From: a virus
DNA: 64,000 nt
Virus record (IMG/VR): IMGVR_UViG_3300042691_033066
Coordinates: 1 to 64,000 of that record
Reading direction: 5' to 3' (one strand)
The notes under the pieces are model-generated. The model was not told where the DNA came from and did no database searches. It worked only from the letters and a program-made list of their open reading frames with translations. Both the position numbers and the translations under genes were made by a program. Within the stretch, counting starts at the first letter, position 1. Every line of letters begins with the position of its first letter. Positions 28,651 through 53,347 of this stretch are shown piece after piece.

Positions 28651-31600
28651 ATGGCAAGAACTAGAAAATCTATACAGCCGTTAAATTTATACAAATATGA
28701 CGTATTAATTGAAGACCAAGGTACACGTTCCGACTACTTTAAAATTAGCCAATTTGACGGCTATTTTTATGGTGGTCGTAACGCATTTCTGGTGGCGGGA
28801 GCTGGTTCGTTAAAGCCCAATTCTAAGATATTAGTAGAAATTTTAAACGTAGACGGAACAACGGTATACAGTGCACCAGTTACTCAATTCGTAGAAGGTA
28901 ATTCTCGACTCATTCAAGTCGAAATATATAACGATACCCCCATCGGAGCTGGTAAAATTGTTATATTGGGATCCACCGATACATATTTGGACGGATCTCC
29001 AGTGCCTCCTGAATGGAAGGACAAATATAATGTTCGTTGGATAACTGACGTTATTATTTCCCCGTTGATAGAAAATAAGACGCCAATTCGTTTTGCGACA
29101 ACTCCATCGGTGGTGGTAGAAGAAAAATTTTACCGAATACCAAGTTCTTCTATATTCACAGAAAAGGTACTGGTACCAATAAGTGTACAACTAACACCAA
29201 AATACTATAGTGTATTTCAAAACGGTTATCAACTTAAAATATCAGGATCACAAGACTCGCAATTTTTATCCGAATATCAAGATGGCATAATCACTGGATC
29301 TGTTGCAGTAAAAGACGGAGAAACTGCTTCTTTATCGTTACCTATAACACGAATATTTAACAGTACATTAGCAGAATCACAAGGTTCACTAATTTACACA
29401 AACACAAATAAGTTAATTACCGAGGGGTTTATAAGTGGCGGCGGTGGATTTTATACGTCTTCGCTTTCTCCACTTGGAACCGTAATACTTACAAGTAGTC
29501 TAAATTTACAATATAGTAAATTGGAAACATTCAACACGGGTTCTGCAGTTTCATATGCAAACCTACGTGTAGTTGATGCAAAAACATTATCTGGTGAAAT
29601 TCACAAAGTACGTGTTTCGTATAAGAACGCAACAGACCCAGGTGAATACGTTACATTATCTGATGTTAACGTTGCCGTACAAGAACTACTGGCAGTTGAT
29701 AGTGCAAGTAAAATAGTCGAGACGGGTAAGTTTAATACGATCTTGGCAAATGATTATTGGTATACTGCTACCATGTCGTTGCAAAAAAATGAAAATACGC
29801 CAACAATACCTCTGTACTACAAATCATCGTCATTAATTTCTAACAGTATTCCTTTAACACAAAGTAATGCAGATTTATTAGATTCTATTAATGTAACACC
29901 AACAATTGTAAATAATGCTTATATCAACGATGTATCTTACTTCATAGGAACAAGAACAGGAAATTCTGTACAAGTCTTTCCTCGCAGTGAATATACACTT
30001 GCATTTGATGCAGTGGTTTCCAAAAAGTCGGGATCGGTTGAACTAAATCAAGCAGATTACTCGTTGGAAGTATATTTGGTTGCACACGAAAATTCTACCA
30101 CAAAATTATTAGAGACTAATTTACGTGGACAATTGCTCGGAACATTAACTCCATCAAGTACATTTACTAAACAAAATTTTGAAGGTACAGAGTTTAATTT
30201 CACTCCAAAGATTATTGATTCTGGAGATTTTGGATTACGATTTATTGCTTATGGCGGTAACTGGAATATTGCAAACATATCACTAAAACCGGCAGAAGAA
30301 CCGTTCTTCAGTCCAGATGAAATTGATATTTTGGTTCCAAATGTAAATTACACAGACAAAATTCTTTCGTTTAAACTGCAATATTTGGACGTAAATAATA
30401 ATTCTGTTGCCACTTCAACACTTTCCATACCAACATATTTTACGGGGTCTGAAGAGTTAGTAATTACCACTGTAACAAATAGCGTTACATCGTCCTATGC
30501 AGAAACGGCATCATTTGTCACACATCAAAATCCCGGCGACAATCGTGTCATTACATCGTTGGGATCGGGTAGTTTAACTGGAGAATCTAATTTACGGTTT
30601 GATGGATCTACGTTAAGTGTTACCGGATCAATGGTGGTGTCGGGTTCTTCTACATTACGAAACATTGGACCTGCACAATTTACGGGATCGGTAAATATTT
30701 CCGGTAGTGCAACGGTCACGGGCAATCTAACGGTTTCGGGATTGTTATCGGCAAATTCACAGTCCATAACATATGTAAGTTCTTCTCAGTTAAATGTGGG
30801 AACAAATATCATCACGGTCAATGTACAGAATCCCATCCCACGATTCGGCGGAATAGCAGTTATTGATTCGGGTTCTTCGCCACAACGTAGTGGATCGTTA
30901 CTATTTGATTCACAAAATGATCAATGGATCTTTGTCCACCAGAATCAAACCAATCCAACATCCTCTGTATTATTGATGGGTCCACAAACATACAATAATA
31001 TTGGGAATGAAACTGCTCTAACTAACAATTATCTGTTGAAATCGGTGAACGCAGAACATGTGGGTGACTCGCAGGTTTATGATAATGGGACAAATGTGGG
31101 GATTGGTACTGCAAGTCCAACCGAAAAGCTAGAAGTCAGTGGAAGTTTGAAAGGAATTGGAGTAGAAACTAGTTTATACAATTTTAAAAATATTTACGGA
31201 CGTTTAAGTGATTCATTATTACACGTTGCCGGTGGAAGTGGTCTTAATGGACTACTTTACTTAAATTACAATGGCGGAACCGTATCAATTGGACAATCAA
31301 CTGCTGCGGTGTTTAGTGTCAACGCAGGAAACGGATTGTATGTAACGACAGGTAATAACGTTGGAATCGGTACTACAAGTCCATCTGGTCCATTACAAGT
31401 CGGTCCATCCAGCGGAACGCCAATGGGATGGGTATATTTTAATAATAATGTTGGGCCATCAAACTCAACTCCTGCGGCAATAACTAGTTTAGCAATGGGA
31501 TGGAATCCATCCAATGGTGGTGGAGAAGCAATTATTGCTTACGGATCAGGGTCAAGCGGTGGTGCGGGAGGTGGTTCTGCTCGGAGATTATCACTTGCAG

Positions 31601-34600
31601 AATGGAATGGCACTACACTAACTGAAGTATTAACTCTACAAAATGCTAAAGTTGGTATTGGTACCACGAGTCCCGCAAATAAATTACAAATTGGATCGGT
31701 TGGTTCGTCCGGCTATGGCGGAAATGATTTAGCAATTGGTAATGGTACACAAGTGATGGCATTTTATCAATATTCCGGTGGTCCGTCTGCATGGTTTACA
31801 AACACAAATTTTTCATTAATGCCATCGGGGGTAGGAAGTACTGGAAACGTTGGTATTGGTACCACGAGTCCGACACAAAAATTAGATGTTAACGGTAGTA
31901 TTGCCTCGCGTGGTGTAGAAATCATAACATCAGACGGTACTGCAAATTATTTAAAAACCGGAGCAGCTCTATATCTTCAATACGGATCAACCAATCTTGG
32001 TATATTAACTGCTGATGGTAAACTTGGTATCGGCACCTTATCACCAACCTCATTACTACACTTATCATCATCTACTGCTCAAATAACAATAGACAGTTCT
32101 AATGATGCAGCCTCGTGGACAAGTGGAATAATACTAAAAACGAAGTTTTATAGAGGATCTGGCATACGATACGATAGTAAAGACGGTAACGAAAAGTGGT
32201 ATGCGGGTGTTCCGTATGCAAGTAGTTATCTGGGTTATCAAATTGGATATGATGGATCTTCCGCAGGTACTCCTGAATATTTAGCAAGTGCGTCATTATA
32301 CATTAATAGTTCACGAAATGTCGGTATTGGTACCACGAGTCCTGGATCAAAACTACAAGTTGCTGGTGATATTCGGTTTGGTACGAACGGAACATACACA
32401 GATCTTCGTATGTACACAGACACTGCATTAAGTGGATATAATCAAACAAATATTATCACACCTACAACGATACCTGGTGGTGGAACAGCACTAACGGCAT
32501 TATATTTGAAAAATGCAGTCAGTGTAGGAACCAACAGAATGGATTTAATTGTGGATGGTAACGTCGGCATTGGTACGACAAGTCCAACGGCTAAACTTGT
32601 CGTTAATGGAAGTAATAACGGAGGTCTTTCTTTAGCAGTTAATGGATCTGACACGGAAGGAACGGTTGCCAAGTTTGCAAGGGGTGGAAGTGAAAAGAAT
32701 TTTTATGTTAATAATACGAATAACCAATATGTTAATTTAAGTACGGAAGGTGATTTTAGATTTAAAGTAGGAGTTACTACAGATCAACCGTATTCAACCG
32801 GCGTTTCAGCTATGGTTATTAGTAGTAGTGGTAATGTCGGTATCGGTACCACAAGTCCCGCAACTCCATTGGATGTTAGTGGCGGTACCGCTGGAACTGG
32901 TGGTTGGAACAGAACGGCAACATTAACTGCGACATATCCTATATTACTTTTTAATAGTAACGGTACAAAGTGGGCGGGTATAGGATACGATTATAGTACA
33001 GCAATGCGTATTTGGGTAAACTCAAATAATAACAATGTTTCCGCAAATACATCAATAGTAACGATTGCAAATACTGGTAGAGTTGGAATTGGAGCAGAAA
33101 CTCCTGATTCATTATTACACATACAATCGGCATCTAATGCAATAGTTCGTATTGATTCAACTAACGCGGTGAATAATGCAGAATTAAAATTATCATACAA
33201 TACGTCTGATTCGCATGGAATGACACTGCGATACAACGGAAATAATGCGTTAGCGTATATTGATAACACGTATCCGACGGCAAGTGGTCAAGTATACGGG
33301 GATATTTACTTCCGTCAAAATATCAACGGAACCATGACCTCCCGAATGATGATTCAAGCGCAAACGGGTAATGTCGGTATCGGTACGACGAGTCCCGGAC
33401 AAAAACTTGATATAGTTGGAAGATTACGATTCCGTTCCGATGGATCCGTTAGTGCAGGAGCTTGGCACACTGATAGTAGTGGAACTCAAGATGTGTTTGT
33501 TGGACAAGTAGGAACTGCTTATACGGATGATTGGGGTGTTTATACAAATGGTAATTGGCGGTTTCAAATTAGAAGAGGTGATGGATTAATATATTTAAAC
33601 GGAAAAACTGCATTTGAGTCAGCAGATAGTTGGTTGCGAGTTAACCAAAGTGCTGCATTTAGTTCTGGCGTATGGTTCGGTAGTACTCCAAATATAGGTC
33701 TTGGTGGAACTGATTCCTATTTGAGTCTAGGTAGTAATGGCGGCACCACAAACTCTCGTATATATTTCCGAGCAGGAACGTATAACGGCACCAACGTCAT
33801 GAATTTTGATGGAACTACTGGAAATGCGTATTATGCAGGAAATATTGGTATTGGTGTATCACCAACGAGTAATAGATTAGACATTCAAGGTGGACATACC
33901 ACTACAACCGCGAGATTATACTCAATAGGCGATGGTGCCACGTTAAATGCATCATTAGATATGTGGGCATCGGAACCAGGCGTAACATACGATGGATCCG
34001 GCATCGGTAATAATGTGAATGGTCATCCGTATTACGGAAGACGAAACACTAGTCTGGCTCAATCTTATATTAGATTTTTTAATGGAAACATATTTTTTGA
34101 TGCAGATTCAACGGACGCGTTGGGGGATACACGACTGTTTATTAGTTCTAGTGGAAACGTCGGTATCGGTACGACGAGTCCACTATATAAGTTACACAAC
34201 GCGGGTACAACTTATGTTGGGGACACGGTTTCATTTGGTGCGGGTGGTAATTCATTAATTAGTTGGACAACTGGATTTAGTGACGGTACAACTTTATTAT
34301 TATATGGTCCAGACGCAGGTTCTATATATATTAGACCAAATGCAGCAAACTCAGGCATATTTCTTAAGAGTAATGGCAACGTCGGTATCGGTACCACAAA
34401 CCCAACGGCAAAGTTGTGTGTAGAAGGTGGCTCGGCAAACTGGAACGAAACAACTCCTGGCACATCAAACGGCACAATTCATTTGGACCCAGGTGTAGCC
34501 ACGGATAATTTTGGTAATGCAATTACTTTTGGCGCAAGTGATTCTTCAAATGGTGAAAATGCACAAGCTGGTATCTACGTCAGAACCGATGGAAGTTATG

Positions 34601-35265
34601 GTTCTAAAATGTATTTTGCAACATCTAATAATTACGGAGCCGGCGCAACTACCAGAATGTATGTTGCCCATGACGGAAAAGTAGGTATCAATACAACATC
34701 CCCATCTAGAACACTACATGTAGTAGGTGATATTTTAGGAGAAGGTACCAACGGATATGGATTAAATGCATCATCTGGGAGATATTATTTCTTTGACAAT
34801 TTCACAGGGAATAATTATATAGGATTAGGTAGCTCAAACTCCGTTGCTCTAGCGGCAGGTGGTAGTGTTACATTAACGGTTACATCTGGAATTCTTGATG
34901 TAACTGGTCAAGTACGTGCCACCAACGAAATTACTGCATATTATTCTGACGCTAGACTCAAGAATTTCCACGGAACGATTAAAGAATCATTAATTAAAAT
35001 AACCAAATTAAATGGATATTATTTTACGGAAAATGAAACTGCCAAATCGTTGGGATATAAGAATGATAAGATGCAAATTGGAGTAAGTGCGCAAGAAGTA
35101 CAAGCGGTACTTCCTGAAGCGGTAGTCCCCGCACCCATTGACGATATGTATTTAACAGTCAAGTATGAAAAACTCGTCCCGTTATTGATAGAAGCAATCA
35201 AGGAACAACAAGTATTAATTGAACAACTTCAAGAGCGGGTAAACATGCTAGGTGAGACACGATAA
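28651..35265 (+). CDS. Large tail fibre with NVGIGTTSP repeats and S74 intramolecular chaperone
   Basis: 2,204 aa. The N-terminal ~600 residues form beta-rich attachment domains (YDVLIEDQGTRSDYFKISQF). Residues ~640-800 contain ITGS/SGS-type beta repeats and a module with YVSSSQLNVG and FGGIAVIDSGSS that also occurs in the 61695 fibre. Residues ~815-2020 hold fourteen copies of NVGIGTTSP followed by KLxVxG, each opening a block of about 60-150 residues. The C-terminal 106 residues are a peptidase S74 chaperone: cleavage-site YSDARLKN with S2099, GVSAQEVQAVLPEAV and a coiled-coil end. The S74 domain trimerises the fibre and then cuts itself off. It probably carries the receptor-binding region just before residue 2099. 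It begins 12 bases after the SbcCD stop. Confidence 0.88.
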   Translation: MARTRKSIQPLNLYKYDVLIEDQGTRSDYFKISQFDGYFYGGRNAFLVAGAGSLKPNSKILVEILNVDGTTVYSAPVTQFVEGNSRLIQVEIYNDTPIGAGKIVILGSTDTYLDGSPVPPEWKDKYNVRWITDVIISPLIENKTPIRFATTPSVVVEEKFYRIPSSSIFTEKVLVPISVQLTPKYYSVFQNGYQLKISGSQDSQFLSEYQDGIITGSVAVKDGETASLSLPITRIFNSTLAESQGSLIYTNTNKLITEGFISGGGGFYTSSLSPLGTVILTSSLNLQYSKLETFNTGSAVSYANLRVVDAKTLSGEIHKVRVSYKNATDPGEYVTLSDVNVAVQELLAVDSASKIVETGKFNTILANDYWYTATMSLQKNENTPTIPLYYKSSSLISNSIPLTQSNADLLDSINVTPTIVNNAYINDVSYFIGTRTGNSVQVFPRSEYTLAFDAVVSKKSGSVELNQADYSLEVYLVAHENSTTKLLETNLRGQLLGTLTPSSTFTKQNFEGTEFNFTPKIIDSGDFGLRFIAYGGNWNIANISLKPAEEPFFSPDEIDILVPNVNYTDKILSFKLQYLDVNNNSVATSTLSIPTYFTGSEELVITTVTNSVTSSYAETASFVTHQNPGDNRVITSLGSGSLTGESNLRFDGSTLSVTGSMVVSGSSTLRNIGPAQFTGSVNISGSATVTGNLTVSGLLSANSQSITYVSSSQLNVGTNIITVNVQNPIPRFGGIAVIDSGSSPQRSGSLLFDSQNDQWIFVHQNQTNPTSSVLLMGPQTYNNIGNETALTNNYLLKSVNAEHVGDSQVYDNGTNVGIGTASPTEKLEVSGSLKGIGVETSLYNFKNIYGRLSDSLLHVAGGSGLNGLLYLNYNGGTVSIGQSTAAVFSVNAGNGLYVTTGNNVGIGTTSPSGPLQVGPSSGTPMGWVYFNNNVGPSNSTPAAITSLAMGWNPSNGGGEAIIAYGSGSSGGAGGGSARRLSLAEWNGTTLTEVLTLQNAKVGIGTTSPANKLQIGSVGSSGYGGNDLAIGNGTQVMAFYQYSGGPSAWFTNTNFSLMPSGVGSTGNVGIGTTSPTQKLDVNGSIASRGVEIITSDGTANYLKTGAALYLQYGSTNLGILTADGKLGIGTLSPTSLLHLSSSTAQITIDSSNDAASWTSGIILKTKFYRGSGIRYDSKDGNEKWYAGVPYASSYLGYQIGYDGSSAGTPEYLASASLYINSSRNVGIGTTSPGSKLQVAGDIRFGTNGTYTDLRMYTDTALSGYNQTNIITPTTIPGGGTALTALYLKNAVSVGTNRMDLIVDGNVGIGTTSPTAKLVVNGSNNGGLSLAVNGSDTEGTVAKFARGGSEKNFYVNNTNNQYVNLSTEGDFRFKVGVTTDQPYSTGVSAMVISSSGNVGIGTTSPATPLDVSGGTAGTGGWNRTATLTATYPILLFNSNGTKWAGIGYDYSTAMRIWVNSNNNNVSANTSIVTIANTGRVGIGAETPDSLLHIQSASNAIVRIDSTNAVNNAELKLSYNTSDSHGMTLRYNGNNALAYIDNTYPTASGQVYGDIYFRQNINGTMTSRMMIQAQTGNVGIGTTSPGQKLDIVGRLRFRSDGSVSAGAWHTDSSGTQDVFVGQVGTAYTDDWGVYTNGNWRFQIRRGDGLIYLNGKTAFESADSWLRVNQSAAFSSGVWFGSTPNIGLGGTDSYLSLGSNGGTTNSRIYFRAGTYNGTNVMNFDGTTGNAYYAGNIGIGVSPTSNRLDIQGGHTTTTARLYSIGDGATLNASLDMWASEPGVTYDGSGIGNNVNGHPYYGRRNTSLAQSYIRFFNGNIFFDADSTDALGDTRLFISSSGNVGIGTTSPLYKLHNAGTTYVGDTVSFGAGGNSLISWTTGFSDGTTLLLYGPDAGSIYIRPNAANSGIFLKSNGNVGIGTTNPTAKLCVEGGSANWNETTPGTSNGTIHLDPGVATDNFGNAITFGASDSSNGENAQAGIYVRTDGSYGSKMYFATSNNYGAGATTRMYVAHDGKVGINTTSPSRTLHVVGDILGEGTNGYGLNASSGRYYFFDNFTGNNYIGLGSSNSVALAAGGSVTLTVTSGILDVTGQVRATNEITAYYSDARLKNFHGTIKESLIKITKLNGYYFTENETAKSLGYKNDKMQIGVSAQEVQAVLPEAVVPAPIDDMYLTVKYEKLVPLLIEAIKEQQVLIEQLQERVNMLGETR
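31092..34710 (+). repeat. Fourteen dispersed coding repeats (NVGIGTTSP)
   Basis: Copies lie near 31092, 31358, 31651, 31849, 32023, 32320, 32563, 32833, 33080, 33370, 33841, 34156, 34378 and 34681. Many keep GGTATTGGTACCACGAGTCC or a close form over 20 bases, enough identity for recombination between copies. Confidence 0.85.
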
Positions 35266-35965: not shown

Positions 35966-38900
35966 ATGAATGAAGAAAATAATCCATACGACTCACCAGA
36001 TTACGCACTCAATGGATTCACGGGAACGTTTAAAAAAGTTCCCCCTCCAGAAGATAAAGAGACGTTAACTCGTCGATTTGCCGATTTAGATCCAGTGGAC
36101 GAGGAAACGTCCAGTACAGAACGAGTTCGTAGGTATTATAAGAGACATCCCGAAAAAGTCCGTAAATATTTAAAGGATACCGTGAAAGATCGTGTAGCCC
36201 GTAATCGTGATCGGGCAAAAGCCGTTAAAAAACACGGGAAAGAAAAGATGAAAAACCATGACGTGCATCATCCAAATGGACCGCAGAACGGTGGTGCACG
36301 GCTGGCTAAAAAAGATCATGGTCGGGATAAAGTCAATGAAATTTTTGAGTTGGTAGTGGAAAACACTAACTTACAAAATATTTATCAATTCGTAGAATAT
36401 GCCGTCCGACGACTAAACATCAAAAATACTCCAAAAATTGTCGTATTGGAACCGAAACCTGATATGACTTCGTTGGGATCGTATGACGTACTAACCAATA
36501 CGATTAGTGTTGTTGCTCGTGGACGGATGTTAGCGGACATTCTTCGGACGATTGCGCACGAGATGGCGCACCAACGGCAAAATGAAATGGGAATCATCAC
36601 CAATCCGGCAGTTGATGGAGCAACGGGGTCACCCATAGAAAATCAAGCAAATAGTGTCGCAGGTATCTTATTACGAGATTACGGACGACAAAATAAAAAC
36701 ATCTATCTATCAGAACACTTATTGGTGGAAGGTGGTGCTCATGGTCATTTAGCACATCCATTTGAAGATACCGATTTATCGTTTAATGATTTTGATGAAA
36801 TGATCAATCGGTCATTAGTGGGCAATTTGGAAAAAGAAGGGCCTGTCGTAGAAAAAATGGACGGACAAAATATTGCCTTTACCATTCGTGATGGTAAGGT
36901 GGTCTTTGCACGTAATAAAGGACATCTAAAGAATCGTGCAGAAAAGGCATTGTCTGCCGAAGAATTGACTACAATGTTTGCTGGTCGTGGAGAGATCTCC
37001 GATGCGTTTGCTAAAGCAGCCGAAGACATTGAAGCTGCTATGAGTAAATTATCGCCAGATGAAATTGAACAAGTGTTTGGAAATGGAAAACGGGTGATGA
37101 GTACGGAAATTATTTATCCTGGTACTCGTAATGTTATTCCTTATGATAAGACGGTATTAGTATTTCATGGTACATTAGAACATGACGATGCTGGAGAAAA
37201 GGTCGGTGTTCAAAATACTGAAAATGGAAAAGTCATTGCTAATGCAGTTACTAAAGCAAATGCAGATAAACAACGTACATTCGGTATATCTGGTCCACGA
37301 ACGGTTGCTATTTCTGATCAAGTCACAGAAGAAATGCAACAAGTATATTCTCGTTTATCACAAAAATTAGAAGATCTTCGTGCGCAGTATAATTTAAAAC
37401 CAACTGCCACATTACATGATTATTTGGAAGAGTGGTGGGGAGAACGTTTGACTGAAATAGAAAGTCAACAAGGATTTAAGTTTACTAATCAAGAACGTAG
37501 TGGACTTACTGCTCGTTGGATTGATAACGATAAAACATTTGGTGTAAAAAATATATCTGACGAGAAAAAAGAGTGGTTTAGAGAATTTGAAAAGAATGAT
37601 TTGAAACCAATGCTTAAGCAATCCGTCAAACCAGTTGAACAAGTATTTTTATCGGCAGGTGTGTACTCATTAAAACGGGTAGTTGAATTTTTGTCGGCAA
37701 ATAATCCCGCAATGACTGATGAATTGAAAAAAGAATTTGCGGACAGTGTGCATGGTATACAACAAGCGGGTGGCCCTGAAAAATTACAAAAGTTAGAGTA
37801 TGAACTGGCTAGATTAAAAGAACTTGGTATTGATAACGTGGTACCAAGTGAAGGTTTAATATTCACGTATAATGGAAATCCGTACAAATTAACGGGTGCA
37901 TTTGCTCCAGTAAATCAAATTATTGGAACGATGAAATACGATAGAGCTCCTGAAAAGACAGAGACTCCAGCAACAGAACCTCAAAAAACCGAACCTGCGC
38001 CAGAAAAAGTAGCAGATGAACCCGTGCAACCAAAAACTCCAGCACAACCGCCCAAACCCATTGCAATTTATCCAGGACGGTTTCAACCATATCATGCGGG
38101 ACATCATGTTACGTATGAAGCATTGGTTGAAAAGTTTGGAAAAGAAAATGTGTATGTGGTGAGTTCAGACAAACAAGATAGTATTACGTCACCATTTGGT
38201 TTTAGTGACAAACAGGAAATCATGACAAGTATGTTTGATATCCCAGAAGATCGTATTATCCAAGTAAAAAATCCATACAATCCAATAGAGTTAACAAAGC
38301 AATTACCAGAAGGAACTCCTGTAGTATTTGCGGTCGGTGAAAAAGACGCTCAACGATTGGGTGGTAAATACTTCCAAAAATATGATCCAAATGAAAAAAT
38401 GGTAGGATACAAGCAAGCTGGATATGTGTGGATTGGACCACCACCAAATCTGGAAGTTAATGGAAAAGAAATCAGTGGAACGCAACTTCGGGCAGTTATG
38501 GGCGATCCGGCAATTACTGATAGAGCAAAGCAAGAAATTTTTACCAAAATATATGGTAAATTTGATAAGAAAATTTTTGATAAAGTGGTCAAAAAAACGT
38601 CTGATGCAGAAGAAGCTAAAAAGATAACCGCACAACACGGTGAAGAACCAGTTGTCGCAGAACCTGGTGCGAAAAAACCAACGAAAGGAAAAGGTAAAAA
38701 ACCAGACGAAAAAGCATTGGGCCGTGCTAAATCCGTATTGGGTCAAAAAGTTCGTAATCCAAAAACTGATCGTGACATTCTAGTTGCAACTGCCTTGAAA
38801 TACCCAACAGACGAACCCGTACGAAAAGCAGCAGAACGAATGGTACAACAAGCAATGTCACAAAAAGAAGGAGTGCTTACCGAAAATACAAAGTCTGATA

Positions 38901-39592
38901 AATTGAAAGTCTATGTATCTATACGAGAATACACGGACGAAGATTTGGAAAATGAAGCAGACGAGTATTTTAAAAACGAACGGACGTTAAAGACATTCCC
39001 AGATATTTTTGATAGTTCCGCAGAACTTAAGAAAGCTATTATGAATGCTCCCAGTGAAGTCTTAACTGTTGATGAGTTAAATAATTTAGAAAACAGTGAT
39101 GTACCCGATGTCTTAGGTGGAAAGAATAAGATGCAGGTATTAAAGAAATTATTGGGTCGTAAACAGGATGTCACGGGATTATTAAAAGATATTAAAGCAA
39201 GAAAACCCGTTGCCATGCCGATTGTGATCAAACACACCAATGGATATTATTTGTTGGGAGGAAACACGAGATTGTCGGTATTGGCAGCAATTGGACATAC
39301 GATGCCGGTCAAAGTATTGGGACATGGTAGTCCATATCCATCACCATACGTACATGCAACATCCGGTGATGCATCCAAAGGTAAACAGAAAAAAACTGGT
39401 AACAAGGATTTATTTAAAAAATTGATGCAAATGAGAATCACTAACCCAGAAACCGGCAACCAAGTAAAAGTTGATACGGCAATGGATTATGATCGTTTAC
39501 ATCCCGCTCATAAGGCAGCTATGGCGTTTATTCGTCAAAACATGAAGGGACTATCCAACAGAGCAGGAATACCAAAAAACAGAACCGACTAA
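35966..39592 (+). CDS. Polyvalent multi-enzyme protein: metallopeptidase, ligase-type NTase, NMNAT-like and ParB-like domains
   Basis: 1,208 aa. Seen in order: a basic, degenerate HNH-like stretch (HDVHHPNG, 98-121); HExxH (H198-E199-x-x-H202, with E225 as possible third ligand); and a covalent nucleotidyltransferase/ligase domain with motif I KMDG (K297), motif III TEIIYPGTR (E381), motif IV EGLIF (E629) and motif V K641. Next are an HxGH nucleotidyltransferase (GRFQPYHAGH, H710/H713; ISGTQLR, 836-842) and a ParB-like segment with GGNTRL (1098-1103). A 36-residue motif is repeated at 929-964 and 1158-1193. LxE sites occur at 255/256 and 973/974. Such mixtures define 'polyvalent' proteins thought to be injected with the genome. 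RNA repair, NAD-related chemistry and host DNA interference are possible roles, none proven. It follows its own promoter-like element. Confidence 0.75.
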   Translation: MNEENNPYDSPDYALNGFTGTFKKVPPPEDKETLTRRFADLDPVDEETSSTERVRRYYKRHPEKVRKYLKDTVKDRVARNRDRAKAVKKHGKEKMKNHDVHHPNGPQNGGARLAKKDHGRDKVNEIFELVVENTNLQNIYQFVEYAVRRLNIKNTPKIVVLEPKPDMTSLGSYDVLTNTISVVARGRMLADILRTIAHEMAHQRQNEMGIITNPAVDGATGSPIENQANSVAGILLRDYGRQNKNIYLSEHLLVEGGAHGHLAHPFEDTDLSFNDFDEMINRSLVGNLEKEGPVVEKMDGQNIAFTIRDGKVVFARNKGHLKNRAEKALSAEELTTMFAGRGEISDAFAKAAEDIEAAMSKLSPDEIEQVFGNGKRVMSTEIIYPGTRNVIPYDKTVLVFHGTLEHDDAGEKVGVQNTENGKVIANAVTKANADKQRTFGISGPRTVAISDQVTEEMQQVYSRLSQKLEDLRAQYNLKPTATLHDYLEEWWGERLTEIESQQGFKFTNQERSGLTARWIDNDKTFGVKNISDEKKEWFREFEKNDLKPMLKQSVKPVEQVFLSAGVYSLKRVVEFLSANNPAMTDELKKEFADSVHGIQQAGGPEKLQKLEYELARLKELGIDNVVPSEGLIFTYNGNPYKLTGAFAPVNQIIGTMKYDRAPEKTETPATEPQKTEPAPEKVADEPVQPKTPAQPPKPIAIYPGRFQPYHAGHHVTYEALVEKFGKENVYVVSSDKQDSITSPFGFSDKQEIMTSMFDIPEDRIIQVKNPYNPIELTKQLPEGTPVVFAVGEKDAQRLGGKYFQKYDPNEKMVGYKQAGYVWIGPPPNLEVNGKEISGTQLRAVMGDPAITDRAKQEIFTKIYGKFDKKIFDKVVKKTSDAEEAKKITAQHGEEPVVAEPGAKKPTKGKGKKPDEKALGRAKSVLGQKVRNPKTDRDILVATALKYPTDEPVRKAAERMVQQAMSQKEGVLTENTKSDKLKVYVSIREYTDEDLENEADEYFKNERTLKTFPDIFDSSAELKKAIMNAPSEVLTVDELNNLENSDVPDVLGGKNKMQVLKKLLGRKQDVTGLLKDIKARKPVAMPIVIKHTNGYYLLGGNTRLSVLAAIGHTMPVKVLGHGSPYPSPYVHATSGDASKGKQKKTGNKDLFKKLMQMRITNPETGNQVKVDTAMDYDRLHPAHKAAMAFIRQNMKGLSNRAGIPKNRTD

Positions 39593-39601
39593 GGGGTTAT
39601 T

Positions 39602-40195
39602 ATGGCAGATCATCAAGCAATTAACAATGTTCGACGTAAAATTAATGAAGTAATGAAAAAGACCGACGAACGTATTGTCGTGGGATGGCGTCCAGAATTA
39701 AATGAAAAAAGAAACGAAGGTGATGTGTGGGAAGGACTAGATGGAAAACAATGGACGATTAAAAATGGTATCAAACAAAACGTTACTAAACTGGATCTAG
39801 CAAAGACACCGTGGTTTTGCCCAGAGTGTCAAAAATCTATGAGTCATAGATTGGACGATAAATTTTGGAATATTCGTGGCAAATGTTTTGATTGTATCAT
39901 TAAAGAAGAAATGGAAATTCGTCGTCAAGGAAAGTGGAAAGAATATGAAAAGAAAAAACTTCAACAAAATTATGTGGCATCGTTGAGAGATCATATTAAT
40001 CAATTACAAGATTACCATGACACAGTAACGTCTCCGTCATTTGTTCATGCCGACCAAGAACGTATTTTGATGATTGAACAATGGAATGTTGATATAGAAA
40101 AAATTAAGACAGATTTACGAAAAGATATTGAAGAACTCACAGCACACCTTACTGAGTGTGAAGCGGAGATGACCAACAATGGAACGAGTGATTGA
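39602..40195 (+). CDS. Zinc-ribbon/coiled-coil protein upstream of terminase
   Basis: 197 aa. A four-cysteine zinc ribbon is visible (CPEC near residue 73, then KCFDC near 97). Before it is a WxGLDGKQW segment, after it a long charged coiled coil to the C terminus. Function is unknown. Its place two genes before the large terminase would suit a DNA-binding packaging accessory, possibly doing the job of the small terminase, which I could not otherwise identify; that is inference. AAGGGG precedes the ATG. It overlaps the next gene by 17 bases. Confidence 0.6.
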   Translation: MADHQAINNVRRKINEVMKKTDERIVVGWRPELNEKRNEGDVWEGLDGKQWTIKNGIKQNVTKLDLAKTPWFCPECQKSMSHRLDDKFWNIRGKCFDCIIKEEMEIRRQGKWKEYEKKKLQQNYVASLRDHINQLQDYHDTVTSPSFVHADQERILMIEQWNVDIEKIKTDLRKDIEELTAHLTECEAEMTNNGTSD

Positions 40196-40838
40196 AGCTC
40201 TTAGAAAATTAATAAAAGATTTTAGTAAAATGCCACAAGTGACGCAACTCGTTGTGGCAGGTGTACTAGTACTAGTTGCATTTAATATGGGACAGTGCGA
40301 TAGTGATTCTCAACTGAATAAGTTTAGAGCAGAATTTTCTGTTTTACAAAAAGAAGCAACGGATACGAAACACTTTGCGGATTCCGTGCAATCAAATGTA
40401 ATTCGTCTAGCTGATGAGTCCAAGAAAAAAGATTCGGTCATTACCAGACTATCATTCACGATTGACTTTACCAACAAACAACGTACGCAGTTGAAAGGAA
40501 ATCTTGTCAAGTTGGAAGATAGTTTGCGGGTAGTAAAAGATACCGCAGAATTAATTGCTATACAAGAAGGTATAATTTATAATTTAAAAGATCAAGTCGC
40601 CAACGCCGAGTCTGTCATAGAAAACCAAAAACAAGTAATAACAACACAACAGTTTAAAATAACCAAGTTGGACAGTGCGGTAGCATTAGCAACACAACGA
40701 GGTGATAGTTTACAAACTGTTGTGACTAAATTAATTAATATGCCGAAACCACCCCGCCAATGGATTAGTAAAAAGACCGCCGGTATGATTGCGTTTGCAA
40801 CTGGTGTTATTGTCGGAGATCAGTTGGCAAGGAGATGA
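40179..40838 (+). CDS. Membrane-anchored coiled-coil protein
   Basis: 219 aa. A hydrophobic segment at about 22-36 (QLVVAGVLVLVAFNM), then a long coiled coil (45-175) and a second weaker hydrophobic stretch near the C terminus (AGMIAFATGVIVGDQ) before LARR. One TM plus a periplasmic coiled coil is the shape of an inner-membrane spanin, but the C-terminal hydrophobic part and the position beside terminase do not fit well. It may instead tether packaging or head assembly to the membrane. No partner outer-membrane spanin lipoprotein was seen. Confidence 0.6.
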   Translation: MERVIEALRKLIKDFSKMPQVTQLVVAGVLVLVAFNMGQCDSDSQLNKFRAEFSVLQKEATDTKHFADSVQSNVIRLADESKKKDSVITRLSFTIDFTNKQRTQLKGNLVKLEDSLRVVKDTAELIAIQEGIIYNLKDQVANAESVIENQKQVITTQQFKITKLDSAVALATQRGDSLQTVVTKLINMPKPPRQWISKKTAGMIAFATGVIVGDQLARR

Positions 40839-40839
40839 G

Positions 40840-42420
40840 ATGGCTCAAGATTTAAAAGAAATTATTAAACAAGAGTACAAAAAGTGTGCAGCTAACCCTG
40901 CATATTTTTTGTCTAAATACTCGTATATTCAACATCCGACGCGAGGTCGGATGTTGTTTGATTTGTACCATTACCAGAAAGACGCATTAAAAGATTTTGA
41001 CGGACACGATTATAATATTGTCCTCAAAGGTCGTCAGATCGGTATTTCTACGTTGGTTGCCGGATATTCTTTGTGGTTATTATTATTCCACCGAGATAAA
41101 AATATTCTCGTTATTGCTACCAAACAAGAAACTGCAAAGAACTTAGTAACGAAAGTCCGATTCATGCATCAAAATCTTCCTGTGTGGTTACGAGGAAGTG
41201 TTATTACTGATAACAAACTTTCCTTACAATTTGCCAACGGATCGCAGATTAAAGCAGTGGCAAGTAGTAAAGACGCCGGTCGTTCTGAAGCATTGTCACT
41301 ATTGATTCTTGACGAGGCGGCATTCATTGATGATGCTGAAATTATTTGGACAGCCGCATCTAGTACGTTGTCAACGGGTGGTAAAGCAATTCTTTTGTCT
41401 ACACCAAACGGCATTGGTAACTTCTTCCATAAGATGTGGCAACAAGCAGAAAATAAAGCCAATAGTTTCAATCCGATTCTACTGGACTGGCGAGTACACC
41501 CAGAACGAGATCAAGCATGGCGTGACCGTCAGACGGAATTGATGGGTGAAATGGAAGCATCGCAGGAACATGATGCATCGTTTATCTTTTCGGGTAATAC
41601 AGTTATTCCACCCGATCTTATTGAGTTTTATAAAAAGACCTATGTCCAAGAACCCATCTCCAAACAAGGATTTGATGGAAACCTCTGGGTGTGGGAATAT
41701 CCATTGGCCGGAAAATCGTATGTAGTATGTGCTGACGTTGCTCGTGGAGATGGTGAAGATTATTCCACGTTCCATGTGATTGACGTAGAAAAGTCGGTTC
41801 AAGTAGCAGAATATAAAGGGAAGGTAGAAACAAAACAGTTTGGTAATATGTTGGTATCTATCGCCACAGAATATAACGATGCATTATTAATACCCGATAA
41901 TAGTTCTATTGGATGGAACTGTATTCAACAAATTATTGACAGGGGATATCGGAATCTCTTCTATATGTCCAGAGATTTACAATATGTGGATGTAGAACAT
42001 CAAGTAACTAATAGACATTATCGTGACGAACGAAATATGGTGCCGGGATTCATGATTTCACAACGTACTCGTCCACTGATTATTGCACGTTTAAAAGAAT
42101 ATATGTTGGATAATTCGTTTACTATTCGGTCGGGTCGAATGATGGCGGAGTTGGAAACATTCATCTGGAAAAACGGTCGTCCAGAGGCTCTGCAGGGGTA
42201 TAATGACGACTTGGTATTGGCGTTGTGTATTGGACTGTGGGTCCGTGATACTGCGCTTAGATTGCGTCAGGAAGGGATAGAGCTGACCAAAATGGCATTG
42301 GATAAGACCTCCTATAACACCGTTCCGTTTGCTATAAAGCAAGGTGGATTGGATCATAATCCGTACGAAATGAAAATCGGTGATAATCAGACGGAAGATC
42401 TTAGGTGGTTGATAGGATAA
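40840..42420 (+). CDS. 17: Terminase large subunit, gp17-like
   Basis: 526 aa (T4 gp17 610 aa). ATPase part: a deviant Walker A VLKGRQIGIST (61-71) without the usual lysine before Ser/Thr, Walker B LLILDEAAF (154-162; D158, E159) and coupling motif LLSTPNG. Nuclease part: VVCADVARGDGEDYSTFHV, an RNase H-like first acidic motif, then PDNSSIGW and late acidic residues near NDDLVLAL. It packages DNA into proheads through the portal and cuts concatemers. The start at 40840 is chosen for AAGGAGATGAG; an in-frame start at 40789 lies inside the previous gene. The protein lacks the extra N-terminal region of T4 gp17. Confidence 0.93.
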   Translation: MAQDLKEIIKQEYKKCAANPAYFLSKYSYIQHPTRGRMLFDLYHYQKDALKDFDGHDYNIVLKGRQIGISTLVAGYSLWLLLFHRDKNILVIATKQETAKNLVTKVRFMHQNLPVWLRGSVITDNKLSLQFANGSQIKAVASSKDAGRSEALSLLILDEAAFIDDAEIIWTAASSTLSTGGKAILLSTPNGIGNFFHKMWQQAENKANSFNPILLDWRVHPERDQAWRDRQTELMGEMEASQEHDASFIFSGNTVIPPDLIEFYKKTYVQEPISKQGFDGNLWVWEYPLAGKSYVVCADVARGDGEDYSTFHVIDVEKSVQVAEYKGKVETKQFGNMLVSIATEYNDALLIPDNSSIGWNCIQQIIDRGYRNLFYMSRDLQYVDVEHQVTNRHYRDERNMVPGFMISQRTRPLIIARLKEYMLDNSFTIRSGRMMAELETFIWKNGRPEALQGYNDDLVLALCIGLWVRDTALRLRQEGIELTKMALDKTSYNTVPFAIKQGGLDHNPYEMKIGDNQTEDLRWLIG

Positions 42421-42489: not shown

Positions 42490-42783
42490 ATGAAGCGTAG
42501 TGAATTAGAAGAAATTATTATGGAAGAAATTTATAAGACGTTACATGAAGAACGTCTGATGAATGAACAACCCCTTGATGAAAAATCCGTTCCACAACCA
42601 TACGATAGAAAAAATCGTCGTCGGATGAACGGATCGCAAATTGCCCGTAGAGATAAGATTGGAAAGGCAATGAAGAAAAATAAAAAAATTGTTGCGAAGT
42701 TCAAAAAGCAACATGGTAGTGAGTGGGAAGATTATTTATGGGCAACTGCAACAAGTAAAGCCATCACTGGCGGAGAAAAATAA
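42490..42783 (+). CDS. Small basic head-region protein with amphipathic N terminus
   Basis: 97 aa. The N-terminal 25 residues ([18 protein letters not shown]) form an acidic amphipathic helix, like the leader peptides of other small genes nearby. The rest is strongly basic ([20 protein letters not shown] and [15 protein letters not shown]). This split, an acidic leader and a basic body, resembles T4 internal head proteins. The start at 42490 follows GCGGAG. The TAATG overlap with the next gene indicates coupling. No family is recognised. Confidence 0.6.
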
Positions 42784-43352
42784 TGATTAGAATGATAGGA
42801 TTAGTAGACCTACGTCCAGTTAAGACGTTTAACAGTTCTGCAGATATTGACGAAGCATTGGATCCGGTGGGAAAAGAAGACAATGACGTTGATAATGATG
42901 GTGATGCTGATAAGACCGATAAATATTTAAAAACTCGTCGTGATGCAATCTCAAAGAAGATTAACGAAGACGACAATCCAGTTCCATCCAATGACCATGA
43001 AGTATCAATGGCAAATAATTCATTGGATGCAATTATTAATCATGCTAATGAGTTAAAAACAAAACTTGGTGAAACAGAAAAAGATATTCCTGCGTGGATC
43101 CAAGATCATATCACAAATGCGGCAAATTATATACAACAAGCTGCTAGTAACTATCACGAACAAAATATCCCAGACGGACCACAACCAGATAAACCAGAAC
43201 AACCACAGCAAGAGCCCATGAACGAAAAAGCTCCAGAAGGTTGGGAAGGCACGGTGAAGGCAATGAAGAAGCACTCAGATAAAATTGACAATCCGTGGGC
43301 AATGGCACATTATATGAAGTCTAAGGGATATACATCACATAAAGGAAAATAA
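42783..43352 (+). CDS. Probable internal/minor head protein with EF-hand-like loop
   Basis: 189 aa. IDEA (22-25) matches the prohead-protease pattern (I/L)xE|A. Residues 35-46 ([12 protein letters not shown]) have oxygen ligands at all positions 1, 3, 5, 7, 9 and 12 of a calcium-binding loop. A helical middle, a Pro/Gln linker and a C-terminal motif [17 protein letters not shown] with [17 protein letters not shown] follow; I recall both modules in head-cluster proteins of marine T4-like phages. No enzymatic function is seen. It lies within a run of small genes between terminase and portal. Confidence 0.66.
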
Positions 43353-43725: not shown

Positions 43726-44235
43726 ATGCCTACAGGTGATACATTTAATGCACCGCAACCTGACTTTGATACGTACAATGAATATGATCAACAGTGTGAA
43801 GGGGAAGGTTGCCTAGAAGAAAAAAAGGGACCATGTTGGAAGGGATATGAAATGATCGGAATGAAACAGAAAGACGGTCGTGAAGTTCCCAACTGTGTTC
43901 CCATTGACGAAAGTTGCATATACGACGGTCAATTCTGTCCCGCATGTCTTGCCAAATATATTTTAGAAAACAAAAAAGCAGGATACTTGGAAGAAGCAGA
44001 ATACCAAGGACGTACGGTATCGCTTGGAAAACCTATGCGTGGTGATGTGAAAAAATTCAAAGTATTCGTAAAAGATCCGTCGTCTGGAAATGTCAAGAAA
44101 GTCAATTTCGGTGATCCGAACATGCGAATTAAAAAGTCCAATCCTGCTCGTCGTAAATCATTTAGAGCACGACATAACTGCTCCAACCCAGGTCCAAGAA
44201 CCAAAGCTCGGTATTGGAGTTGTCGTAAGTGGTAA
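43726..44235 (+). CDS. Conserved Cys-containing head-cluster protein
   Basis: 169 aa. The first half has cysteine pairs (CEGEGC; GPCWKGYEMIGMKQKDGR; CPACLAKYI) that could form a small zinc or disulfide-bound fold. The second half, from AEYQGRTVSLGKPMRGDVKK through VNFGDPNMRIKKSNPARRKS to RARHNCSNPGPRTKARYWSC, is basic and extremely conserved among T4-like marine phages in my memory. YLEE|A at 90/91 fits the LxE|A prohead-protease rule and lies exactly between the halves. I infer a processed internal or capsid-associated protein; function is unknown. The ATG at 43726 is used; another at 43721 is out of frame. Confidence 0.7.
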   Translation: MPTGDTFNAPQPDFDTYNEYDQQCEGEGCLEEKKGPCWKGYEMIGMKQKDGREVPNCVPIDESCIYDGQFCPACLAKYILENKKAGYLEEAEYQGRTVSLGKPMRGDVKKFKVFVKDPSSGNVKKVNFGDPNMRIKKSNPARRKSFRARHNCSNPGPRTKARYWSCRKW

Positions 44236-44645
44236 TTCGTCTTCGTGATTTATTGACCGAAGCAGACACTAAAAAAGACACTCCATATGTGAGTGGGGAT
44301 ACTTATATTAGTAAGGAAGAAGCAAAGCACATCTATGATAATATGGGATACGACTTTGACTTCAATCAATTTGTTTTGGGTATGAATGTAGAACTGGAAC
44401 ATCAAGATGTGACAGACGGGAGTTTGGTGAAAACTGCTATGATTGCCGCAGCACATTTGAAAGAAGTTCCTGACTATTATACAAAATTAAAACAACACGT
44501 TGAACCCAAAAAAGTTACAAAAGAAGATGGTGCACCAACGGGAGGAATTGGATTAAGTCTTCCCGGCGGATATATCAACGGAGCACCAAATCCTAAAGAT
44601 GTAAAAAAGACACGATTGCGTCTCAATAAGGAGAAAACACAATGA
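44229..44645 (+). CDS. DUF5661-like protein with capsid-targeting-like leader
   Basis: 138 aa with a GTG start at 44229, ten bases after GGAG and overlapping the previous stop. The leader MVIRLRDLLTEA ends in LTE|A, the consensus of prohead protease cleavage, and resembles T4 capsid-targeting peptides. The body shows NQFVLGMNVELEHQDVTDG and AAAHLKEVPDYYTKL, the signature of DUF5661, whose His/Glu residues suggest metal binding. A Gly-rich C terminus ends with basic residues. It is probably packaged into the head with its leader removed. Confidence 0.66.
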   Translation: MVIRLRDLLTEADTKKDTPYVSGDTYISKEEAKHIYDNMGYDFDFNQFVLGMNVELEHQDVTDGSLVKTAMIAAAHLKEVPDYYTKLKQHVEPKKVTKEDGAPTGGIGLSLPGGYINGAPNPKDVKKTRLRLNKEKTQ

Positions 44646-44977
44646 TTCGTCTCACCGATTTACTAAAAGAAAATGCAGAACGCCGGGTAAACTTGATGAA
44701 AATTCAAGCTATCATGGAAAAGCTCTATCCAGAATTAACGGATAGTCAATCAAAAAAATTAATGGAATTATGCACAGAAGTTCATATGATGGCTTCCCAA
44801 ATGAATACTATCCCTTATATTAGAACAGAGAGTAGTATGATGCAATGGGCAATTTTGGAAGCAACTTTCAAGGCAAAAGTCGGTGAGCTAAAAGAAGAAG
44901 TTGTCAAGGTATGTGAAGATAAAAAAATTGATTCGGCAACTGTAGTTAAAGCACTTGACGAAGTATTAACATATTAA
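44642..44977 (+). CDS. Small helical head-region protein with capsid-targeting-like leader
   Basis: 111 aa. MIRLTDLLKEN resembles the leader of the preceding gene (MVIRLRDLLTEA); LKE|N would be its cleavage site and matches the LQE|N proposed for the major capsid. The remainder is helical with VNLMKIQAIMEKLYPELTD and no recognised domain. The ATG overlaps the previous stop, and the portal gene starts ten bases after it. Confidence 0.6.
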   Translation: MIRLTDLLKENAERRVNLMKIQAIMEKLYPELTDSQSKKLMELCTEVHMMASQMNTIPYIRTESSMMQWAILEATFKAKVGELKEEVVKVCEDKKIDSATVVKALDEVLTY

Positions 44978-48256: not shown

Positions 48257-48841
48257 ATGGCACTTCTTTGTGAATATACTGAACTTCAATATGACAGAAA
48301 TATATTATTAGAATCTATTGATGGTAACAAACCACTAATTCTAAAAAATGTCGTATTGCAACGAGCAAATGCAAAGAATCAAAACGGTCGTGTGTATCCA
48401 AAAGAAATTCTCATGCGTGAAGCATCGGTTTACAAACAAAACTTTGTCAATCAACGCCGAGCACTTGGAGAACTTGATCATCCCGAAAGTCCCGTCGTCA
48501 ATTTAAAAAATGTGTGTTGCAACGTGGTTGGGTTGTGGCCAGACGGCGATGATGTTCGTGGTGATATAGAAATTCTTACCACACCAACTGGTAATATTGT
48601 TCGGGAACTTATTAAGAATAATATCCGGTTAGGAGTATCATCCAGAGGCATGGGATCGGTACGACAGATGGGAGAAAATACCGTAGAAGTCCAAGAAGAT
48701 TTCAGTTTAATTTGTTTTGATATTGTGTCAAATCCTTCCACATTTGGGGCTTTCATTAACGAAAGTGTGGATTCAAAGATTGTCACCCCATACGATACGA
48801 TTGATAAGTTGGTTCACGATTTCTTAAGCGAAGTTAAATAA
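48257..48841 (+). CDS. 21: Prohead core protease, gp21
   Basis: 194 aa (T4 gp21 212 aa). VVLQRANAKNQNGRVYPKEI, then GELDHPESPVVNLKNV with the catalytic His in LDH, and IRLGVSSRGMGSV with the nucleophile Ser. FDIVSNPSTFGAFINES closes the fold. It is a serine protease of the phage prohead family (herpesvirus assemblin-like fold) which cuts scaffold, capsid and internal proteins at (I/L)xE sites, then itself. It lies in the canonical order before scaffold and major capsid. Two possible serines (SSR) are adjacent, so the exact nucleophile is not certain. Confidence 0.92.
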   Translation: MALLCEYTELQYDRNILLESIDGNKPLILKNVVLQRANAKNQNGRVYPKEILMREASVYKQNFVNQRRALGELDHPESPVVNLKNVCCNVVGLWPDGDDVRGDIEILTTPTGNIVRELIKNNIRLGVSSRGMGSVRQMGENTVEVQEDFSLICFDIVSNPSTFGAFINESVDSKIVTPYDTIDKLVHDFLSEVK

Positions 48842-51739: not shown

Positions 51740-53347
51740 ATGTCAGATGTACAAGATTTTATCAACGAAGCGGGGACGGCACATAAGCACGTCATTGATC
51801 AAACCCGCAAATTAGCAGGTAAGTGGGAACGTTCAGGTCTTCTAGAAGGCTTGAAGGGATATGAAAAGCAAGGCATGGCAGTCATGCTCGAAAACCAAGC
51901 AACACAACTTCTCCAAGAAAACACCAAGACCAACCAAGCTGGTGCAACTGGTGAACAATGGGCAGGTGTTGCTCTTCCATTAGTCCGTAAGGTCTTCGGA
52001 AGTATTGCAGCAAAGAACTTCGTTTCAGTTCAACCAATGAATCTTCCAGCAGGACTTGTGTTCTACATGGACTTCAAGTATGGTACCACACGTAACGGTC
52101 AAACAGCAAACCAATCACTTTATGGTGCCGCAGCTGCTTCTACATGGGGCGGATTCGGTAACACGAACACGGGTGGTCTATATGGTGCAGGTCGTTTTGG
52201 TTACACCATCAACGTCACAAGTTCAGGAACAACGTTAGGTGACACAACTGCATCAGTATCATTCTCAGACGTTAATTTTAATGACGTATATGTAGCAACT
52301 GGAAGTCTCCGTAAGTTCGTCGTAGATAAGGCCGACCTTCCTGGATTTGATCCATTAGCAGTACGCGCATTCGTCCCATCTGGTTCAGGTGCAGATTTTG
52401 CAGCACTCGTACTTCCTGAATTTACGAAGTATGATGGCACAAACGTCACGTTCATTGTCAATACATCAGCAAATGCAGTATTGAACAAAGTTGAATATGT
52501 GAAGCAACCAACGGATACAACTCGTGGTGATTTTGAAGATCGTGATCCAATTCGTGGCTCAGGAAACGGCACAGGACTTGATGACGGTACAGATCTCAAC
52601 ATTCCAGAAATTGATTTGGAACTCAAGAGTGAAACCATCGTTGCCAAGACACGTAAGTTGAAGGCAGTATGGTCACCAGAACTTGCACAAGACTTGAACG
52701 CATACCACTCAGTTGATGCAGAAGCAGAATTGACAAGTATGTTGTCAGACTATGTTGCAATGGAAATTGATCTTGAAATCCTTGACATGTTAATCAACGC
52801 AGCACCAACGGTTGATTACTGGTCAGCAGAAATTGGTTCAACCTGGAACGGATCAGCATTTGCTGCTTCATCTTTCACGGGAACAGCATGGACAAACATG
52901 ACTTGGTACCAAACACTTGGTCAGAAGATGCAAAAGGTCAGTAACCGTATCCACCAACTCACAATGCGTGGCGGTGCTAACTTCGCAGTTGTCTCACCAA
53001 CAGTTGCAACAATTCTTGAAACCATCCCTGGCTTCGCAGCCGGAACAGACGGTGACAAGGCAGAATTTGCAGCAGGTATCACCAAGATTGGTTCATTCAC
53101 CAACCGCTTTACCATCTACAAGAACCCATACATGACAGAAAACGTGATGTTAATGGGCTTCCGTGGAAATCAGTTCTTGGAAACTGGTGCAGTTTACGCT
53201 CCATACATTCCATTGATCATGACACCACTCGTGTACGATCCAGCAAACTTCACACCACGCCGTGGCGTGATGACACGTTACGCCAAGAAGATTGTCCGTC
53301 CGGAATTCTTCGGAAAGATCTACATCGACAAGCTCGCACTTGTATAA
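51740..53347 (+). CDS. 23: Major capsid protein, gp23
   Basis: 535 aa (T4 gp23 521 aa). The N-terminal propeptide probably ends at LLQE|N (60/61), where T4 is cut after LTE at 65. Then come EQWAGVALPLVRKVFGSIAA, FVSVQPMNLPAGLVFYMDFK, the insertion region, IPEIDLELKSETIVAKTRKL, AVWSPELAQDLNAYHSVDAE and LINAAPTVDYWSAE; the C terminus has ETGAVYAPYIPLIMTPLVYD, FTPRRGVMTRYAKKIVRPEF. It forms the hexamers of the head. TAGGAG precedes the ATG; codons are strongly biased to CGT, AAG and AAC as expected for the most abundant virion protein. A strong terminator follows. Confidence 0.96.
   Translation: MSDVQDFINEAGTAHKHVIDQTRKLAGKWERSGLLEGLKGYEKQGMAVMLENQATQLLQENTKTNQAGATGEQWAGVALPLVRKVFGSIAAKNFVSVQPMNLPAGLVFYMDFKYGTTRNGQTANQSLYGAAAASTWGGFGNTNTGGLYGAGRFGYTINVTSSGTTLGDTTASVSFSDVNFNDVYVATGSLRKFVVDKADLPGFDPLAVRAFVPSGSGADFAALVLPEFTKYDGTNVTFIVNTSANAVLNKVEYVKQPTDTTRGDFEDRDPIRGSGNGTGLDDGTDLNIPEIDLELKSETIVAKTRKLKAVWSPELAQDLNAYHSVDAEAELTSMLSDYVAMEIDLEILDMLINAAPTVDYWSAEIGSTWNGSAFAASSFTGTAWTNMTWYQTLGQKMQKVSNRIHQLTMRGGANFAVVSPTVATILETIPGFAAGTDGDKAEFAAGITKIGSFTNRFTIYKNPYMTENVMLMGFRGNQFLETGAVYAPYIPLIMTPLVYDPANFTPRRGVMTRYAKKIVRPEFFGKIYIDKLALV

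Follow-up and report, generated by a model that had tools for sequence, protein, structure and literature searches.

The window analysed here is a stretch of 64,000 nucleotides (positions 1 to 64,000) of IMG/VR record IMGVR_UViG_3300042691_033066, which holds 74,076 bases and comes from an environmental T4-like myovirus. At 35966-39592 on the plus strand lies a single open reading frame (ORF), P0001, whose translation is 1,208 amino acids (aa) long, with a mass of 135 kDa. We set the module borders of P0001 by comparison with relatives, which gave modules B, C, D, E, F (twice) and G (Table 1), and we describe here these modules and a short motif that stands before C, D and G. The motifs that the original prediction had listed in this one frame are present at the residues it named, far beyond chance, and most are conserved as catalytic residues.

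Of 94 distinct copies of module D, 84 carry (L/I)-x-E|GG directly at the point where the module opens with GGAxGH; the bar marks the putative cut. At this site 93 of the 94 have L or I at P3, with P2 free, and 57 of 68 D ORFs without a C module also keep (L/I)xE|GG. In Microcystis phage Mel-JY01, an isolate with this locus (WWT39297.1), the site reads IIAE|GGLGGHMNHPF. Because the pattern was first noticed at D, we used C as a separate test. An (L/I)xE motif occurs within 30 residues upstream of the C core in 42 of 52 non-redundant modules, where 20.7 are expected, and none of 500 shuffles scored as high. The controls before C, namely (L/I)xD, (L/I)xK, (L/I)xQ and (V/F/M/Y)xE, showed no enrichment. 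Since the distance from the P1 residue to the C core ranges from 4 to 28 residues, the motif before C is no constant element of the fold. Before module G, (L/I)xE|(N,G,A,T,S,E) is present in 7 of 8 aligned relatives, and the P0001 sites before D and G both lie in linkers with a predicted local distance difference test score (pLDDT) below 50 in the AlphaFold models.

The T4 prohead protease gp21 cleaves after L/I-x-E (PMC9026906), and the T4 substrate sequences that we fetched, gp24 (MAKINELLRE) and gp23 (FLTE|AEIGG), agree with this rule. At the level of sequence, the conserved (L/I)xE pattern matches the T4 rule, and the window encodes a homologue of that protease. Its major capsid protein has a probable maturation site, LLQE60|NTKT, where the T4 gp23 counterpart carries FLTE|A in the alignment.

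Nine D modules depart from the pattern, having an in-frame Met for the Glu, with AAGGAG, AGGGAG or a similar sequence 9 nucleotides upstream. These Met-type modules (L055, L056, L068, L078, L085, L089, L090, L092 and L093) carry KELLLM|GG, and the codons of their Shine-Dalgarno-like stretch are mostly rare in the respective ORFs. A Met and a Shine-Dalgarno-like sequence stand at the cleavage point, and therefore initiation could make the same D N-terminus. This clade thus appears to have switched from proteolysis to an internal translation start.

T4 IPII and IPIII start with MKTYQEFIAE|A (sequences fetched). We observed free-standing C proteins that start with MLTFKQYIAE, MLKFKQYLKE, MKKFKQFLNE, MKRFTQYLTE or MNYKQFLRE, and cyanophage E homologues that start with MKKFSAFLNE|A (S-SM1 GC190), MKKFSTFISE|A (S-ShM2) or MKSFSQFLTE|T (P-SSM5). 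Further E homologues start with MRSFLTFLTE|A (ACG-2014f), MKKFSAFLSE|A (Syn9) or MKKFSEIIE|A (Melnitz-1), and the longer P0001 relatives L003 and L006 with MNIESLLYE|A and MDNINLLQE|A. The N-termini of the free-standing C proteins and of the cyanophage E homologues thus resemble the T4 capsid-targeting sequence. By mass spectrometry, GC190 was detected alongside gp21 in purified S-SM1 virions (PMC3037559), and a cytidylyltransferase was detected in S-CREM2 virions, whose authors propose that it enters the host (PMC10665884). The S-SM1 gene before GC190, GC71, is ligase-like by motif (KWDGAP...EGFV...KLVDR) and echoes the D-E pairing.

Module C is an HExxH...E metallopeptidase, as had been read from H198 and H202. 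The zincin hallmark, HExxH with a downstream Glu, was found in all 29 aligned C modules, with H198, E199, H202, Q205 and E225 invariant. A structure search with the C-D AlphaFold model (pLDDT 90.9) placed C near IrrE/PprI, jannalysin and SprT-type zincins, and C shows a weak similarity to DUF6782/M78. Module B, which ends in DVHHPNG...KKDHGRDK, is HNH-like by eye only: the stretch described earlier as HNH-like is indeed a highly conserved 75-aa module, but neither Pfam nor PDB gave an HNH match for it. As a sole query, B gave no match among the reference phages.

From its motifs and best folds, we predict that module D is a covalent nucleotidyltransferase resembling RNA ligases. Superfamily motifs I (KxDG), III, IV (EG) and V (K) were found in 48 of 48 aligned D modules, with E296, K297, D299, G300, E381, E629, G630, K641, T643 and G644 invariant, so that the ligase motifs K297, E381, E629 and K641 noted earlier are conserved throughout. 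The leading PDB neighbours are mostly RNA ligases, although these matches are weak (best E 4e-3). In the BFVD viral structure library, D matched RNA ligases including RM378 RNA ligase (4.5e-5), as well as an S-PM2 'cytidyltransferase-like' protein of 591 aa (equality with S-PM2p138 and p139 not established). No Pfam family scored above threshold for D in P0001; the RNA_ligase cut-off was not reached, and relatives gave sub-threshold matches to that family (E 0.06-0.14). Thus, the ligase claim stands for the motifs, and the likeness is to RNA ligases, with weak fold matches. More than 580 viral stretches in IMG/VR carry D, a count to be read as at least 580, and outside viruses it was found in 6 metagenome-assembled genome contigs in a collection of 84,980 species genomes. 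The family is essentially viral.

Module E is predicted to be an HxGH nucleotidyltransferase of the nicotinamide mononucleotide adenylyltransferase (NMNAT) kind, which refines the earlier HxGH assignment (H710/H713; ISGTQLR at 836-842). It matched Pfam CTP_transf_like (PF01467) at 23.9 bits (cut-off 21), and among 33 aligned modules G704, F706 and H713 are invariant and H710 is H in 27. In the structure search, nicotinamide and nicotinic acid mononucleotide adenylyltransferases led, with phosphopantetheine adenylyltransferases also among the neighbours; the E-F-G-F AlphaFold model is fair (pLDDT 82.9). The NCBIfam NMN adenylyltransferase equivalog cut-off was not reached (26.5 of 181 bits).

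The GGNTRL segment that had been called ParB-like lies at 1098-1103 in module G and is conserved in 8 relatives, but P0001 gave no ParB family match in Pfam; the N-terminus of relative L012 has a weak ParB_N match (0.0011). Pfam and PDB profiles give no support to the ParB and HNH identities. Matches of profile A8 to HigA antitoxin and of profile A10 to Toxin B look like chance. Module F is a repeat of about 40 aa with the consensus xRNPxTxxxIxVxTALxYxxxHPA, drawn from both P0001 copies and the F modules of L009 and L035-L041. It tends to lie towards the C-terminal end of the predicted cleavage products and, as a sole query, had no match among the reference phages.

The architecture comparison suggested by the original prediction found C, D and E modules in shuffled orders across the relatives. 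D-bearing ORFs are usually mosaics of 400-2,100 aa just upstream of terminase, the longest being 2,108 aa (L117). The window clade has the order B-C-D-E-F-G-F, L009, L036 and L040 have E-F-A-B-D-F, L011 has E-D, and L098-L114 have E-C-D. The combination thought to be new is therefore not unique to the window phage, and shuffled versions are widespread. Its location at the entry to the packaging cluster does hold: among 135 D-module loci, a homologue of the small gene at 39602-40195 follows in 131 and terminase in 121, counts that are not independent because some of the loci overlap. Extra fusions bring in P-loop kinases (L049, L052, L080 and L088) and, in L117, a CCA-adding enzyme together with an HD domain. 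The HAD phosphatase of the window also has a homologue with 48% identity that is joined to the upstream side of D in L044 and L053, which hints that phosphatase and D work together in repair. Together with its kinase, phosphatase and CCA-adding relatives, D points to RNA end repair, and E to nicotinamide adenine dinucleotide (NAD) or a related dinucleotide. A reasonable, if lesser, possibility is that D is another covalent nucleotidyltransferase (a DNA ligase, a capping-type enzyme or a protein AMPylase-like enzyme) acting on the product of E. The core motifs are common to the whole superfamily, the model shows a helical insertion of about 150 aa between motifs III and IV, and D and E co-occur very frequently among relatives; however, RNA ligases mostly lead the PDB matches, and the kinase, HAD phosphatase and CCA-adding fusions suit end repair. 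This alternative concerns the role of D and is compatible with the packaging model.

Table 1. Modules, candidate cleavage sites and head-cluster genes in the window
Feature	Coordinates	Strand	Basis
P0001, putative polyprotein ORF	35966..39592	+	Open frame; relatives L002-L012
Module B, residues 44-122	36095..36331	+	Basic helical segment, conserved in alignment of 17
B/C junction IFE|LVVE|N, residues 126-132	36341..36361	+	Candidate prohead-protease sites; (L/I)xE before C cores in 42/52
Module C, zincin-type metallopeptidase, residues 133-245	36362..36700	+	HEMAH 198-202 and E225
C/D junction LSE250|H and LVE255|GG	36707..36730	+	Candidate cleavage sites; (L/I)xE|GG in 84/94 D modules; linker pLDDT <50
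Module D, putative KxDG covalent nucleotidyltransferase, residues 256-665	36731..37960	+	Motifs I K297, III E381, IV E629, V K641
D-E linker, Pro/Thr/Glu-rich, without (L/I)xE	37961..38053	+	Sequence
Module E, NMNAT-like, residues 697-885	38054..38620	+	GRFQPYHAGH, ISGTQLR; PF01467 above cut-off
Module F copy 1, residues 926-965	38741..38860	+	VRNPKTxRDILVxTALxY repeat; other positions in relatives
F/G junction LTE973|NTK	38876..38884	+	Candidate cleavage site; motif in 7/8 relatives; linker pLDDT <50
Module G, ParB-like, residues 974-1140	38885..39385	+	GGNTRL 1098-1103; conserved in 8 relatives
Module F copy 2, residues 1154-1194	39425..39547	+	Repeated module
Small conserved gene 3' of P0001	39602..40195	+	Homologue near 131/135 D-module loci, some overlapping
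Terminase large subunit	40789..42420	+	phrog_2, 1.9e-48; downstream of P0001-type ORFs in 121/135 loci
Portal	44988-46847		
Prohead (head maturation) protease, T4 gp21 homologue	48257..48841	+	phrog_207, 4e-49; aligned with T4 gp21
HAD/PNKP-like phosphatase	49528-50214	+	Between head protease and scaffold genes
Major capsid protein	51740..53347	+	phrog_138; aligned with T4 gp23
Tail sheath	56275-58632

Further genes on the plus strand surround P0001. Directly upstream, 28651-35265 encodes a tail-fibre-like protein of 2,204 aa with many VGIGTTSP repeats. The product of 42783-43352 has an EF-hand/dockerin-like DNDGDxDxxDxYLxxRR motif that occurs in several PHROGs, among them phrog_764, named cytidyltransferase. 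The CWKGYxxxGxKxxxGxxVPNCVP cassette and the C-terminal domain encoded at 43726-44235 both recur in gp17 of the Methylophilales phage Melnitz-1, a protein that has a targeting-like start and an E module. Two small proteins, encoded at 44229-44645 and 44642-44977, start with VVIRLRDLLTE|A and MIRLTDLLKE|N, and from these targeting-like N-termini are possible prohead core or internal proteins.

Taken together, we consider that P0001 is probably a polyprotein that is packaged in the capsid and, once trimmed in the prohead, delivers a metallopeptidase and a kit of nucleic-acid-repair and NAD enzymes; that P0001 itself is cut, is packaged and acts in this way is our inference from the patterns above. 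P0001 would be synthesised alongside the late head proteins and then enter the prohead, where the gp21-type protease would cut after E128/E132, E250/E255 and E973. The products would be B, C (about 13 kDa), D-E-F (about 80 kDa, starting with GGAHGH) and the ParB-like G-F (about 26 kDa). These pieces would be ejected together with the DNA. D might then seal ends of RNA or another nucleic acid, E might make a dinucleotide such as NAD, and C may clip a host protein, so that before phage gene expression the kit would repair RNA and cofactor damage inflicted by host defence, or reprogramme the host. An anti-defence role had been suggested earlier; it was not confirmed. PADLOC defence families gave no match. 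More tentatively, and not far short of an even call, aquatic T4-like phages may encode in one head-cluster gene a polyprotein cargo that the prohead protease cuts in the capsid and that delivers an RNA-repair/NAD kit with the genome, one clade having exchanged the site for an internal ribosome-binding site.

Several observations weigh against this explanation. The total number of (L/I)xE motifs in P0001 is not above that in shuffles (11 versus 11.2), and seven of them lie inside predicted domains. Module breakpoints other than the C and D starts show no (L/I)xE enrichment. An enrichment at all module borders was rejected, as it was gone once the C and D starts were removed, and because other borders lack enrichment we limit the site claim to C, D and G, the last a small sample. 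In L097 (503-3457), which has no D, Lys/Pro-rich linkers stand before C and G without (L/I)xE. The N-terminus of P0001, MNEENNPYDS, carries no capsid-targeting sequence. The virion-detected cyanophage protein has E, not D, and the S-CREM2 authors warn of possible co-purification (PMC10665884). For D, the PDB fold matches are weak, as given above, and the profile comparison with cyanophage GC71 (hhalign) was not significant, so we cite only the fold-level S-PM2 match.

It is unlikely that P0001 is a classical polyvalent protein of the kind that Iyer et al. propose, which enters the host in one piece or is split by the zincin that it carries. The embedded HExxH domain, the ParB-like segment and the late-gene context fit such a protein, and published precedents are N4 vRNAP, which is packaged intact, and P1 DdrB, which is processed (PMC5512222). 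However, self-cleavage by C does not explain the E|GG site and was rejected as its origin, because 57 D ORFs without C keep (L/I)xE|GG, and the site is the one that gp21 is known to recognise, with a gp21-type gene in the window. The polyvalent idea of the original prediction was therefore right in outline, a multi-enzyme protein of the head cluster, but P0001 is probably a polyprotein with prohead-protease sites rather than one machine. It is quite improbable that P0001 is an enzyme fusion that is made late or associates with the scaffold, stays unpackaged and acts in the producing cell, with (L/I)xE belonging to the D fold: conservation does run on through GG..GHxxHP, which would fit a structural role for the motif, and junctions other than those of C and D lack enrichment, but the linker is predicted to be disordered, the P1-to-core range before C spans 4-28 residues, one clade has a start codon and Shine-Dalgarno-like sequence in place of the Glu, and E homologues are present in virions.

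If P0001 is a packaged polyprotein, two outcomes become testable, namely whether repair enzymes travel in phage capsids and act ahead of all phage gene expression, and whether a prohead protease frees enzymes from a polyprotein, beyond trimming head proteins. The reading also gives a functional hypothesis for the Pfam-less, virus-restricted D family and for the 'cytidylyltransferases' seen in cyanophage virions, and offers a rule by which injected cargo could be predicted from sequence.

Polyvalent proteins are large phage proteins that combine zincin, ParB-like and nucleotide enzymes and are proposed to enter the host with the DNA (Iyer et al. 2017, PMC5512222). Like them, P0001 joins disparate domains, as conservation, Pfam and fold show for C, D and E, beside late genes, and by analogy it may plausibly be delivered with the DNA. 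Unlike them, its modules are separated by sites of the prohead-protease type, and neither an RNA-ligase-like D module nor an HxGH NMNAT-like module was found in the part of that paper drawn on here. What is new is the punctuation by prohead-protease sites, together with the broad family of shuffled relatives; our search of the open literature for a polyprotein that a phage's prohead protease processes came no nearer than polyvalent proteins. With T4 IPI-III and Alt, which are processed by gp21, the system shares the (L/I)xE rule, a gp21 homologue and the targeting-like starts of free-standing C and E homologues, but P0001 has several enzymes per chain, internal sites and no N-terminal targeting sequence. 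D resembles T4 RNA ligase 1 and RM378 RNA ligase in motifs I, III, IV and V and in its nucleotidyltransferase-type fold, but differs in its helical insertion, its conserved N-terminal HxxHP, its location in the head cluster and its score below the Pfam RNA_ligase cut-off. The cyanophage T4-GC190 'cytidylyltransferase' (S-SM1, Syn9, S-PM2) is a virion-detected E homologue (2.7e-7) with a targeting-like N-terminus in S-SM1 and Syn9, and the KWDGAP ligase-like GC71 adjoins it in S-SM1 and S-PM2. GC190 and GC71, however, are separate genes in another genome region, and GC71 is too diverged for profile alignment with D.

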